Source: Anaerolineae bacterium (GTDB lineage Bacteria; Chloroflexota; Anaerolineae; Aggregatilineales; Phototrophicaceae). From it: a stretch of 64,000 nucleotides of DNA. How positions within the stretch are numbered: the first letter of the stretch is position 1; each line of letters begins with the position of its first letter. The notes beneath the pieces are model-generated. The model searched no databases. It saw only the letters and a list, made by a program, of their open reading frames with translations, and was not told the DNA's origin. The stretch covers positions 33,739 through 97,738 of the forward strand of contig JALHOR010000005.1 of assembly GCA_022842885.1 (NCBI GenBank). The letters are read 5' to 3'. Shown here piece after piece: positions 9,144 to 59,659 of this stretch. The position numbers were made by a program, and so were the translations under genes.

Positions 9144-9588
9144 AAGACTCTCTCCTCGCTGGAATCCAATGCATCAGAACGTTGGATACCACCGCACAGA
9201 GACGCAAAAAAAGCATCCAGATGGGTGGCAATCCAAAATATTGATATGAAAATTACGGGCGTCACAAGTGGCTGTTTTACTGCCAACGTTACCGCTGGTG
9301 TTTGTCGGCACACTTTAAAACTGAGGAGAGATAGAGAAGGGTGGTGAACTGCACCCTGACGGCATCCGCCGAATAATTCGATTTTCCCCGTTATTACGGG
9401 TTAGCCCTGTGTTTGCACAGAGAACCGTCACCTCGTCAGCCGGATAAGTTCCGGCACTGGCGCTTGTTAAACTCTCTCCACAAGATAATTTTGGTTAGTC
9501 ACTCCTTTTTTATCATGAACCATAGACCACTATAAAACCGAATGAGGGCAGCGACAAGAGGAAATTTTCACAAATAGGGAATAAAATT
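9144..9588 (-). other. 445-bp gene-free stretch: glmS 5' leader
   Basis: No credible gene. It holds the glmS ribozyme (9280-9464); a hairpin just before the ribosome binding site with arms ATCCAA (9164-9169) and TTGGAT (9182-9187); and a fragment CGCACAGAGACGC near 9193 that resembles the CACAGAG repeats at 37992-38026. I see no convincing -35/-10 pair upstream of the cleavage site. Confidence 0.7.
9280..9464 (-). ncRNA. glmS self-cleaving ribozyme in the glmS 5' leader
   Basis: Read on the minus strand, the leader matches the glmS ribozyme core in order: AAGCGCCAG with predicted cleavage between A9464 and G9463; a P1 hairpin closing into CTGACGAGG; P2 TGACGG pairing with CCGTCA; ATCGAATTATTCGGCGGATG; P3 GGGTG / CACCC around TGCAGTTCAC (near 9339-9356); and a P4-like hairpin CCAGCG-GTAA-CGTTGG (9283-9298) capped by a GNRA tetraloop. 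The RNA uses GlcN6P as cofactor to cleave the mRNA upstream of glmS. An insertion of about 38 nt with two hairpins (CTGTG-CAAA-CACAG and CCCG-TAATAA-CGGG) sits between the P2 5' strand and the AUCGA segment. Motif identification is strong; the exact 3' limit is approximate. Confidence 0.95.
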
Positions 9589-38277: not shown

Positions 38278-39699
38278 TCAGGCTTTGCCGTTAAAGGTTT
38301 CCAGCGCCAAATCATGCAGACAACGCACCGCCAGCGCCATATCTTTTTCCGCAATGACAAACGAGATACTGCATTCGCTTGACCCCTGTGCGATTGCCAA
38401 CACATTCACTTGATGATTGCCAAGCGTCGTAAACACCCGCCCCGCCACCCCCGGACGATGCCGCATCCCAGCACCCACCACTGTGATGATGATAATATCC
38501 TGCCATACGTCCACACTGTCTACGTCTTGTCGCGCAATCTCGGCGGCTAATTCGGATTCGACGGCGTGTTTGACTTGCGGCGCTTTATCATCGGGTATCG
38601 TAAAACAAAAACTCTGCTCCGATGAGGATTGCGAAATCATCAAGATGCTGGCGCCAGCTTTCGCCGTTGCTAAAAACGTGCGTCCAGCGATGCCCGGTAC
38701 ACCTAACATGCCCTTGCCGCTGACCGTCAACATACTCACGCTGCGAATGCTCGTCACGGCTTTGATGATATTCGGGTCAGTTTCCATCTCAGCGCCGATG
38801 AGTGTCCCGGGGTGGTCTGGATTAAACGTATTGCGGACACGCATGGGAATCGCTTTATTGATGATGGGCTGTACGGTTTTGGGATGCAGTACTTTTGCGC
38901 CGTAAAATGCCAATTCGCCCACTTCAGCATAACTGACATACGGTAACACCCGCGCCCGTTTATCCACACGCGGGTCAGTCGTCATCACGCCATCCACATC
39001 CGTCCAGATAATCAGTTCGTCGCTATCGAGATTGGCTGCAAAAATTGCCCCGCTGAAATCACTGCCCCCGCGCCCTAGTGTCGTTACACTGCCATCCGGC
39101 GTTGCGCCGATAAAGCCAGTAATCACAGGTGTAATGCCAGCCTCCAGAACCGGTGTCAATTTTTCACGGATACGCTGTTCGGTAATATCCCAAAGCGGTT
39201 CCGCATTTTGGTATTGTGCATTGGTAACAACAAACAACCCAGCATCAAACGCCAGAGAACGAATACCCCGTTCTTCCAGAATGGCTGCCACCATGCGGGC
39301 GCTCATTCGCTCCCCTAGCGATACCACCGCGTCGGAAATGCGTGGCGTGGCTTCTTCCAAAATATTGATGGCTTCGCACAACTCTTGTTGATGTTGCAGC
39401 ATGGTATGAATGTCGCTCAAAACAGCATTGCGGCGTTCACTAGGCGCGATATGTTGATGAATAGCATCTTCATGTTTATCCCGAATATCATTCGAGAGCG
39501 ATTTATACCCCCATTTGTCGCCCGCTATGGCGGCTTTGACCGATTTTAATAACATATCGGTCACGCCGGACATGGCAGACACTACCACCGCCACCTGATT
39601 GCCTTGTGCGATTTCTCGGCTGACAATGCCGACCACTTTTTCAAGCGCCTCTGGACTGCCAACCGATGTGCCACCAAATTTCATCGTTAAGCGTTTCAT
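38278..39699 (-). CDS. lysC: aspartate kinase
   Basis: Phosphorylates aspartate, the first step to lysine, threonine, methionine and diaminopimelate. The 473-residue monofunctional enzyme has the kinase domain (1-300) with MKFGGTSVG, VVVSAMSGVTD, GRGGSDFSG near 222 and a TDVDGVMTTDPR segment near 245, then two ACT regulatory domains (about 320-395 and 400-470; e.g. GKGMLGVPGIAGRTF, GMRHRPGVAGRVF). It has no fused homoserine dehydrogenase. Its long leader holds a promoter, a Thr/Met-rich peptide and an intrinsic terminator, so it is probably attenuated by threonine and methionine supply in addition to feedback through the ACT domains. Confidence 0.96.
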   Translation of the reverse strand: MKRLTMKFGGTSVGSPEALEKVVGIVSREIAQGNQVAVVVSAMSGVTDMLLKSVKAAIAGDKWGYKSLSNDIRDKHEDAIHQHIAPSERRNAVLSDIHTMLQHQQELCEAINILEEATPRISDAVVSLGERMSARMVAAILEERGIRSLAFDAGLFVVTNAQYQNAEPLWDITEQRIREKLTPVLEAGITPVITGFIGATPDGSVTTLGRGGSDFSGAIFAANLDSDELIIWTDVDGVMTTDPRVDKRARVLPYVSYAEVGELAFYGAKVLHPKTVQPIINKAIPMRVRNTFNPDHPGTLIGAEMETDPNIIKAVTSIRSVSMLTVSGKGMLGVPGIAGRTFLATAKAGASILMISQSSSEQSFCFTIPDDKAPQVKHAVESELAAEIARQDVDSVDVWQDIIIITVVGAGMRHRPGVAGRVFTTLGNHQVNVLAIAQGSSECSISFVIAEKDMALAVRCLHDLALETFNGKA

Positions 39700-39734
39700 A
39701 TGTGCGCTGACCCCTTTGCTACGATGTGATTCAA

Positions 39735-39767
39735 TAAAAAAGGCGCGTGGGGGTTGCCCATGCGCCT
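39735..39767 (-). terminator. attenuator terminator in the aspartokinase leader
   Basis: On the minus strand: AGGCGC-A-TGGG, loop CAACC, CCCA-C-GCGCCT, then TTTTTT, ending 36 nt before the aspartokinase ATG. Its loop and 3' arm contain ACCCCCA (39748-39754), perfectly complementary to TGGGGGT (39813-39819) in the leader peptide reading frame. Confidence 0.85.
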
Positions 39768-39794
39768 GTTGATGACTGTGTGATTTTCATCGTC

Positions 39795-39887
39795 TTATAA
39801 CAAGCAGGTACTACCCCCATAGATGCTGTTCGGCATCATGGTCATCATAGTCGTCGGAGTAGTGGTGATATAATGAACGATGAACAT
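39795..39887 (-). CDS. Thr/Met-rich attenuation leader peptide, 30 aa
   Basis: A 30-codon frame in the aspartokinase leader containing ITTTPTTMMTMMP: six Thr in total and four Met in addition to the initiator, mostly clustered at codons 8-18. This mirrors the layout of the enteric thr leader, where stalling at Thr/Ile codons prevents termination. The last Thr-Met-Met-Pro codons form the 5' arm of hairpin CCATGATGC-CGAACA-GCATCTATGG (39817-39841). If a ribosome stalls before them, TGGGGGT is free to pair with ACCCCCA of the terminator. No clear Shine-Dalgarno is seen, which is the main weakness. Confidence 0.75.
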   Translation of the reverse strand: MFIVHYITTTPTTMMTMMPNSIYGGSTCLL

Positions 39888-39929
39888 TGGGTTTAGAATT
39901 GGGTTGAGATGACAAAATCAATCCAGAAT

Positions 39930-39958
39930 ACAATAACCCTGTCCATAAAAGCTGTCAA
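39930..39958 (-). promoter_or_regulatory. promoter of the aspartokinase leader
   Basis: Consensus TTGACA (39953-39958), 17-nt spacer, TATTGT (39930-39935). Predicted transcription start is about 36 nt before the leader peptide. A small palindrome TGAT-GTGT-ATCA lies immediately upstream (39960-39971). Confidence 0.7.
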
Positions 39959-40001: not shown

Positions 40002-41114
40002 GTGACAGAAATTACCTTGGAAAATATCTCGCGCCGCTTCATCGCCAATAACCTGCAAAAGAGCGAAATCATGGCAGTGCGTGATGTGTCCCTCAAAGTT
40101 AAAACAGGTGGCTCATTGGCACTCTTAGGACCGACGGGCTGCGGCAAAACCACTTTACTCCGGCTCATCGCTGGCTTAGACACTCCCACCACTGGCGAAG
40201 TTTTGTATGATGGGCTGCGGTTGGAAGAAGTGCCGATTCAAGAACGCGGCATTGGCATGGTATTTCAGGATTATGCCCTCATTCCGCATTGGGAAGCCGA
40301 AAAGACGATTAGTTTTTTCTTGCGGCTGCGTCACCGTGAGCGCGAAGTGCCAGAACGAGTGCGGCGTGTTTCCAAAATTACGGGCGTCGGCATTGAAACC
40401 CTCATGGACAAACTGCCGCGTCAACTTTCCGGTGGCGAAAAACAGCGCGTAGCGATTGCCCGTGCGTTTGCCCGCGATTTGCAAGTGCTATTATTGGATG
40501 AACCCTTTGCCAGCCTAGATGCCAATTTTCGTGCCAGCGCCCGCATAGAATTAAAACGCTTGTTGCAAGAATTTCCGGTGACAACCATTATGGTCACGCA
40601 TGACCAGCAAGAAGCCGCATCATTAGTAGAACGGATTGCATTAATACGCGAAGGCACTATCGAACAAACGGGACCCTATCGCCATTTATATACCCATCCC
40701 CGCAATATATTTGTCGCGCAATTTATCGGCGTTCCTACGATGAATCGTCTGGAAGGGGTAGCACGCGATGGCAAATGGTACGGCAAGCAGTTTGGTGGCT
40801 ACCCACTGCCGACTGATGTTGCCAATGATACTCCCGTGACCCTTGGCATACGCCCCGATGCGATTCAGCCTCATTTAATAGGGATTTCGGCAAAGATTGA
40901 CCTGATTGAAATGCATTTTGCCGAGCGTTTTACCCTGCTCACCGTTTCTAAGGGTGACGAACATTGGCAAATACAAACAGAACTGACTCCTAATTACAAA
41001 GTAGGTGATACGATTCAGTGCCAATTGAATCATGCCCATGCGCTGTTTTTCAACACACATACAGGCGAATATCTGAGTCCGTTTTTGCATGATGAAGATA
41101 TGCCACTGAATTAG
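40002..41114 (+). CDS. ABC transporter ATP-binding protein (CUT1/MalK-like)
   Basis: A 370-residue ATPase subunit. Walker A is LLGPTGCGKTTLLRL near residue 43, Q-loop VFQDYALIPHW near 88, signature LSGGEKQRVAIARAFARD near 146, Walker B LLLDEPFASLD near 165 and switch His in VTHDQQEAAS near 202. A C-terminal TOBE-like regulatory domain (about 245-365) contains LGIRPDAIQPH. The closest family is sugar or polyol uptake ATPases (MalK/UgpC); permease and binding protein genes are not adjacent, so it is an orphan that may serve several transporters. It starts with GTG. Confidence 0.9.
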   Translation: MTEITLENISRRFIANNLQKSEIMAVRDVSLKVKTGGSLALLGPTGCGKTTLLRLIAGLDTPTTGEVLYDGLRLEEVPIQERGIGMVFQDYALIPHWEAEKTISFFLRLRHREREVPERVRRVSKITGVGIETLMDKLPRQLSGGEKQRVAIARAFARDLQVLLLDEPFASLDANFRASARIELKRLLQEFPVTTIMVTHDQQEAASLVERIALIREGTIEQTGPYRHLYTHPRNIFVAQFIGVPTMNRLEGVARDGKWYGKQFGGYPLPTDVANDTPVTLGIRPDAIQPHLIGISAKIDLIEMHFAERFTLLTVSKGDEHWQIQTELTPNYKVGDTIQCQLNHAHALFFNTHTGEYLSPFLHDEDMPLN

Positions 41115-58738: not shown

Positions 58739-59659
58739 ATGGCAATACGGTGGACAATTACCGAGGAGATGAATCGCGTACATCTGACGCAGGTTTTTTC
58801 CGGTGGCGCATGTAATATCTTGGATGAACAAGGAAAATTGCTGCGGAATAATGAGCGTGACCGCATCAATGATTGGATTACCACTAAACGAGTCATTTTC
58901 TTTGACCCACAAATTCATCCCGATACGCATGGGTATGAGTACGATTATCTAAAACACCATCCCCTAGAAATTGCCGCCCGCAATGCTGCCAAAGTCAACT
59001 TATATGAAATTTCGCCGCGCAGTTTTTGCGGCATCACATCGCTAGAAATTGCCACCGACCATTTTTTGAATCGGGAACCTACTGTGATTTATTATTCGGA
59101 TGGCAACCCAGAAAAAGATGCGCTGCCCGTGCATAACCTATGGGGACACCCGTTGTTTGAGCCACTAGGCATCCGCGATAATCAAGAAGGAATGCAAGCC
59201 CATTACCGAGAATTCATGAAAAACGGAACAAATATGCGCCTGCATTTGATTCATCAAGCGCGGAAATTAGATACTTTGACCGTAACATTTAATGGCGAAA
59301 TCCGCAAAAATGATGTGGTGATTACACCCTACCGGATGCACGCAGTGGATATGTTTACGGCATTATCGCGGGCAGCAGGCGGGGAACGCATTTTTGTTTA
59401 TTTTTCCGGTGGTCCCGAAACTCGTGATGCCAAAGGCAATCCGCGCTTTGTGCTGCCGGAAAATCCCGCCGATGTTGAGCTGAATGCACTGCTTGACCAA
59501 TATGTGGATGAAGGCAATGAATTACGGCGTGCCATCATAGATTTGGTGGAAATTAGCGTCTTTTTGCGCGTGGTCTATACGCAAGCCGCCGCAATTCAGG
59601 CATTAGATGAGTTATTCAAAGTAGCGGGTGTAGCACTCAACAGCGAAACTCAATCATAG
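58739..59659 (+). CDS. hypothetical 306-aa protein
   Basis: Not assigned to a known family with confidence. The N-terminal half reads like a Rossmann-type nucleotide/sugar-processing fold: VFSGGACNILDEQGKLL near residue 19, VIFFDPQIHPDTHGYEYDYL near 51, LEIAARNAAKVNLYEISPRS near 76 and TSLEIATDHF near 99. Compare nucleoside 2-deoxyribosyltransferases, which have similar DPQ/HG and E-x-A elements; this is only a suggestion. The C-terminal half is helical with ELRRAIIDLVEIS. A TATAAT lies upstream at 58684. It is followed 18 nt later by the glutaminyl cyclase gene. Confidence 0.6.
   Translation: MAIRWTITEEMNRVHLTQVFSGGACNILDEQGKLLRNNERDRINDWITTKRVIFFDPQIHPDTHGYEYDYLKHHPLEIAARNAAKVNLYEISPRSFCGITSLEIATDHFLNREPTVIYYSDGNPEKDALPVHNLWGHPLFEPLGIRDNQEGMQAHYREFMKNGTNMRLHLIHQARKLDTLTVTFNGEIRKNDVVITPYRMHAVDMFTALSRAAGGERIFVYFSGGPETRDAKGNPRFVLPENPADVELNALLDQYVDEGNELRRAIIDLVEISVFLRVVYTQAAAIQALDELFKVAGVALNSETQS

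Follow-up and report, generated by a model that had tools for sequence, protein, structure and literature searches.

The window analyzed here, a stretch of 64,000 nucleotides from an Anaerolineae bacterium, carries on its minus strand a ThrA-like, monofunctional aspartokinase gene with ACT domains (38278..39699, ATG at 39699; Pfam AA_kinase and ACT). The best NCBIfam scores of the protein were to PRK06291 and to the aspartokinase part of AK/HSD I, both below the whole-protein cut-offs. The gene is preceded by a Shine-Dalgarno-like AAAGGGG (39711..39717), and the divergent neighbor of the leader region is an ABC-transporter ATPase gene starting at 40002 on the plus strand. A sigma-70-type promoter, TTGACA-N17-TATTGT (39930..39958), can be read directly in the sequence and would drive the leader; its -35 box lies at 39958-39953 and, after a 17-base spacer, its -10 box at 39935-39930. 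From the promoter position, transcription probably starts about 40 bases upstream of the leader ORF, which begins with ATG, has 30 codons (39795..39887) and encodes MFIVHYITTTPTTMMTMMPNSIYGGSTCLL. Codons 8-18 (39834..39866) read TTTPTTMMTMM. A 1:2 or protector hairpin, CCATGATGC/GCATCTATGG (39817..39841), spans from the end of the Thr/Met codons to the start of the antiterminator strand TGGGGGTAGTACCTGCTT (39802..39819), which overlaps the final codons of the leader frame. The segment TGGGGGT (39819-39813) of this strand is complementary to ACCCCCA in an intrinsic terminator hairpin, GGCGCATGGGCAACCCCCACGCGCC plus T6 (39736..39766, -17.2 kcal/mol), with the arms GGCGC..GCGCC at 39766-39742 and the T-run at 39741-39736. 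All these elements, from promoter to terminator, are encoded on the minus strand. A previous sequence-only reading had listed them, and their order and coordinates proved to be correct throughout. Its caveat that a Shine-Dalgarno sequence is missing from the leader was justified as well, since an SD-like string precedes the assumed start in only 11 of the 42 non-redundant leaders that formed our statistics set.

The coding character of the leader is supported by its codon composition and by the pattern of its indels. Across the 42 leaders, the leader frame contains 25.2% Thr and 18.8% Met, compared to 7.9% and 2.2% for the window's long ORFs, and the other reading frames show no Thr/Met bias. 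Ile is not enriched (5.0% vs 6.8% background). The window leader has 10 Thr/Met within 14 codons, a density that was reached by none of 300 dinucleotide shuffles (mean 4.2), and for 34 of the 42 leaders 0 of 300 shuffles attained the observed density in any frame. In the alignment of the relatives, the coding part contains 70 internal gaps, each of 3 or 6 positions, in contrast to spacer gaps of many lengths. Judged from the sequence, a short ORF thus contains a cluster of codons for amino acids made by the regulated pathway, as expected for a ribosome-mediated attenuator.

Orthologues were collected from 60 related genomes with the aspartokinase as query. The same string of parts precedes the gene in 26 of 29 orthologues fetched from the same family (f1) and is absent from three (L010, L026, L027). 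TTGACA and a -10 box at a spacing of 16-18 occur at a similar position in nearly all leader-bearing loci of the family. The leader peptides, for example MLYGKAHTTPMTMTTMPEITGDGGCRLP in a genome of the same genus, are variable except for the Thr/Met block and, among members of the family, a C-terminal GxFRLP, whose codons form the antiterminator strand at the RNA level. When GTDB species genomes were scanned for the exact terminator pattern AGCGTGTGGN{3,8}CCACACGCTTTTTT, 37 loci were obtained, 30 of them directly upstream of an aspartokinase. Of these 30, all but one have record titles that name Chloroflexi, Anaerolineae or Aggregatilineales. The remaining one (L054) comes from a MAG titled Bacteroidetes, and as its leader and gene resemble the rest, the MAG is probably mislabelled or mixed. 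Searches with a leader model yielded one strong copy per genome, always upstream of an aspartokinase, and a BLAST search of plasmids with the leader gave no matches. A single-protein scan of genome contigs likewise retrieved no relatives. A weak match of the model in the window (58920-59027) was rejected due to its location inside a coding ORF; matches in G004 C345 and G014 C32 were not attenuators upstream of biosynthetic genes, and a pattern match in the source genome (L109) lacked both a leader and a biosynthetic gene. No such leader precedes the second aspartokinase gene of these genomes, which is often located within some 10-25 kb of aroH (G001 C199, G027 C1, G029 C65, G020 C239 and others); its product is about 36% identical.

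As in known attenuators, an intrinsic terminator separates the leader ORF from the gene, a mutually exclusive antiterminator can form, and a 1:2 hairpin links the regulatory codons to the antiterminator strand. In the relatives, 98.8% of the alignment cells of the terminator are paired, with changes on both sides in 5 of 9 pairs. The 1:2 hairpin is paired in only 66.5% of the cells and is therefore variable among members, although its covariation score of 0.32 exceeds those of shuffles (0.185) and of slid controls (0.20 or less). Within the family, the antiterminator pairs better with its own terminator than with swapped ones (-23.4 vs -21.1 kcal/mol), and none of 20,000 permutations was as good. 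The corresponding duplex of the window has -21.5 kcal/mol, its own terminator being the second-best of 42. In a fixed-column alignment the antiterminator helix rose only modestly above its shuffles, because the terminator loops vary in length; the column-based count is thus the weaker measure of this element.

The sequence-only reading had proposed a Thr/Met attenuator, expecting covariation in both hairpins and Thr/Met codons maintained in an otherwise variable peptide, and naming loss of the terminator, the complementarity or these codons in close relatives as evidence against it. The expected covariation and codon conservation were borne out, the same-genus genome and most family members keep the parts, and the complementarity is specific beyond permutation in f1, with both of its strands replaced jointly in other families. 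Hence, the comparative evidence, all of it in silico, supports this proposal, and we consider the locus very probably a transcription attenuator of the ribosome-mediated type, with charged tRNA-Thr and tRNA-Met as the sensed molecules.

From the observed parts, their conservation, their complementarity and the coding frame we infer leader translation, stalling, termination and readthrough in the following manner. With threonine and methionine plentiful, the leading ribosome would reach the leader stop codon and cover the antiterminator strand, so that the terminator could fold and transcription would end upstream of the aspartokinase. With either amino acid in short supply, the ribosome would stall within TTTPTTMMTMM. 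This would prevent formation of the 1:2 hairpin and leave the antiterminator strand free to pair with the 5' arm and the loop of the terminator as they exit the polymerase. The terminator would be blocked and transcription would proceed into the aspartokinase gene. Folding of the window leader predicted a terminator probability of 0.98 both without a ribosome and with one that has reached the stop codon, and a median of 0.28 with the ribosome on codons of the Thr/Met block. In most relatives the finished terminator beats the antiterminator at equilibrium even with a stalled ribosome, and the mechanism would therefore depend on the order of folding during transcription. Nascent transcripts ending 8 bases before the T-run were modeled for all 42 leaders. 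With the ribosome stalled, the mean predicted capture of the 5' part of the terminator by upstream RNA was 0.89; it was 0.49 once the ribosome stood at the stop codon and 0.68 without a ribosome. These values agree with antitermination by folding order in this model.

If the switch works at all, the role of Thr is near certain, and that of Met is likely, though less sure than that of Thr. The sensing of methionine is mechanistically awkward, as its shortage would also cut initiation by fMet-tRNA and thereby oppose antitermination. This consideration fits an attenuator that reads only the charging of tRNA-Thr, with the Met codons as passengers, e.g. spare start codons. Few Met residues are present in several leaders, and one leader of family f34 (L156) retains ITTTT and has lost the Met run. 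Against this stands the composition of the leader core, with 19% Met over the 2.2% background, and the interleaving of Met with Thr, recurrent in five families. Furthermore, sister families regulate the same gene by a SAM-I riboswitch, which was found upstream of the orthologous aspartokinase in f4, f27, f33 and f42 (L030, L031, L034, L122, L124, L139). SAM-I is known to control methionine-linked genes, so the gene is under methionine-linked control elsewhere in the class. We therefore regard a Thr-only attenuator as unlikely.

The Thr/Met attenuator is also indicated by more distant families. In f3 (L040, L042, L043), a family of the same taxonomic order, the leaders have 14 Thr/Met in the last 30 residues and a different antiterminator/terminator pair (e.g. 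GCCGGTTGCT vs AGCAACCGGC). Elsewhere in the class Anaerolineae, Thr/Met leaders are present in families f28, f34 and f18, again with other self-complementary strands, in f34 for instance CCGTGAGG vs CCTCACGG. In these other families, antiterminator and terminator are unrelated in sequence to those of f1 and complementary to each other. The motif TTTPHR common to f1 and f28 hints at common descent. Sampled orthologues from outside the class (f60, f69, f79, f81, f87) were preceded neither by a Thr/Met leader nor by SAM-I.

This replacement of strands also bears on the idea of an arrest peptide, in which a small molecule binds to the ribosome and the nascent peptide and the conserved C-terminus GxFRLP causes the stall. 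The C-terminus is indeed well kept within the family. However, the same stretch constitutes the antiterminator strand, and RNA pairing accounts for its conservation. Moreover, unrelated C-termini are found elsewhere (AVASSWM, VRKLCLE, ALALGQR, DVRAFAG) together with other complementary terminators, and the position of the stop codon shifts freely in L012, L014, L017, L021 and L024. Altogether, an arrest peptide appears very improbable. A metabolite riboswitch or T-box that overlaps a short frame by chance is even harder to credit. The occurrence of SAM-I before the orthologous gene in other families lends this idea some plausibility, but neither the window leader nor its relatives matched an Rfam model, no folded domain is conserved on the 5' side of the 1:2 hairpin, and conservation is at the codon level. 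The SAM-I aptamer (RF00162) was absent from the window and the scanned f1 loci, and T-box (RF00230) from the window and the scanned family loci. In another part of the window (9256-9475, minus strand), a glmS ribozyme/riboswitch was detected just above the gathering score (38.3 vs 37). An ordinary terminator next to a chance frame would have been compatible with a single-genome reading, but shuffles, permutations and cross-family conservation all oppose it, as does the position of the terminator, downstream of the gene's own promoter and upstream of its coding sequence, which leaves this explanation with next to no probability.

The best control for the aspartokinase attenuator is a leader upstream of aroH. 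Weak matches of the leader model pointed to leaders with NYYYYFYF, NFYYFYF and YFGFYFYYWG upstream of the chorismate mutase gene aroH, followed by a gene that reads as DAHP synthase. In the source genome (G000 C183; L110, L171) a Phe/Tyr leader, MMNSQPTFYFYYYFKTPLKQV, precedes aroH (TIGR01796), and its GGTGTGAG is complementary to CTCACACC in the terminator. Among 30 aroH loci that were fetched, a crude rule assigned 18 a leader of the Phe/Tyr type, for which no Rfam family exists. Since the architecture is identical and the codons are those for Phe and Tyr, the codons track the pathway. Relatives (L101, L102, L175-L200) likewise combine a Phe/Tyr-rich leader ORF and a matching antiterminator/terminator with aroH and a DAHP-synthase-like gene. 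A Phe-rich leader, MILLMKHFTFSFTRFTTLLGRRK, with the terminator GCGTGTGG..CCACACGC was likewise reached through the weak matches of the model, in L104 (G004 C162); it lies in front of a gene that reads as prephenate dehydratase, which is followed by an aspartate-semialdehyde-dehydrogenase-like gene.

Leader-peptide attenuation is well known in enteric bacteria. Naville and Gautheret (2010, PMC2965389) name Proteobacteria and Actinobacteria as the only groups in which such systems had previously been demonstrated, and add the Firmicutes. A study of Actinobacteria reported no conserved RNA regulatory structure upstream of threonine or methionine operons (PMC1262725), and five Chloroflexi genomes have been analyzed, but only with four Rfam amino acid leader models (PMC3766115). 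Our search of literature accessible without subscription returned no Thr/Met leader, no amino acid attenuator of Chloroflexota and no leader-peptide attenuator that reads methionine, although an earlier prediction in the broad study of Lopatovskaya et al. 2010 (cited in PMC4833913) is possible. Within this scope, the statement of the sequence-only reading that a Thr/Met form before a monofunctional aspartokinase outside Proteobacteria had not been described still stands. As far as the searched literature shows, the phylum Chloroflexota is new for ribosome-mediated attenuation, and so is the Thr/Met codon pair. Our findings extend translation-coupled attenuation to this phylum and suggest that much of the amino acid regulation in the largely uncultured class Anaerolineae may be readable from leader peptides (Thr/Met, Phe/Tyr, Phe). 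On balance, we favor the broader view that this type of control is general and old in Anaerolineae, and that its aspartokinase version is a two-input switch (Thr or Met) and the first leader-peptide attenuator to read Met, which interchanges with SAM-I on the same gene. The locus further offers a natural test of whether methionine, the tRNA synthetase of which also supplies initiation, can be sensed by ribosome stalling.

Among known systems, trp-, his-, phe- and ilv-type attenuators of Proteobacteria, Actinobacteria and Firmicutes work by the same principle with other amino acids and in other phyla. SAM-I (S-box, RF00162) shares the position before the orthologous aspartokinase, but unlike the Thr/Met leader it binds SAM directly without a leader peptide. 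The aspartokinase is a clear case of one gene that some families place under a peptide attenuator and others under a SAM riboswitch. The closest counterpart is thrL of the enteric thrABC operon (Rfam Thr_leader, RF00506), which likewise combines runs of Thr codons, a 1:2 hairpin, an antiterminator and a terminator with an aspartokinase target, and the aspartokinase studied here scores well against the corresponding half of ThrA. At its gathering score the RF00506 model does not match the window, and 12 family loci scanned with a limit of E = 1 had no match to it either. Of the Thr and Ile codons typical of that family, only those for Thr are enriched here. In contrast to thrL, the second amino acid is Met instead of Ile, the target is a monofunctional aspartokinase and apparently a single gene, the phylum is Chloroflexota, and the antiterminator strand lies inside the leader ORF, near its stop codon.
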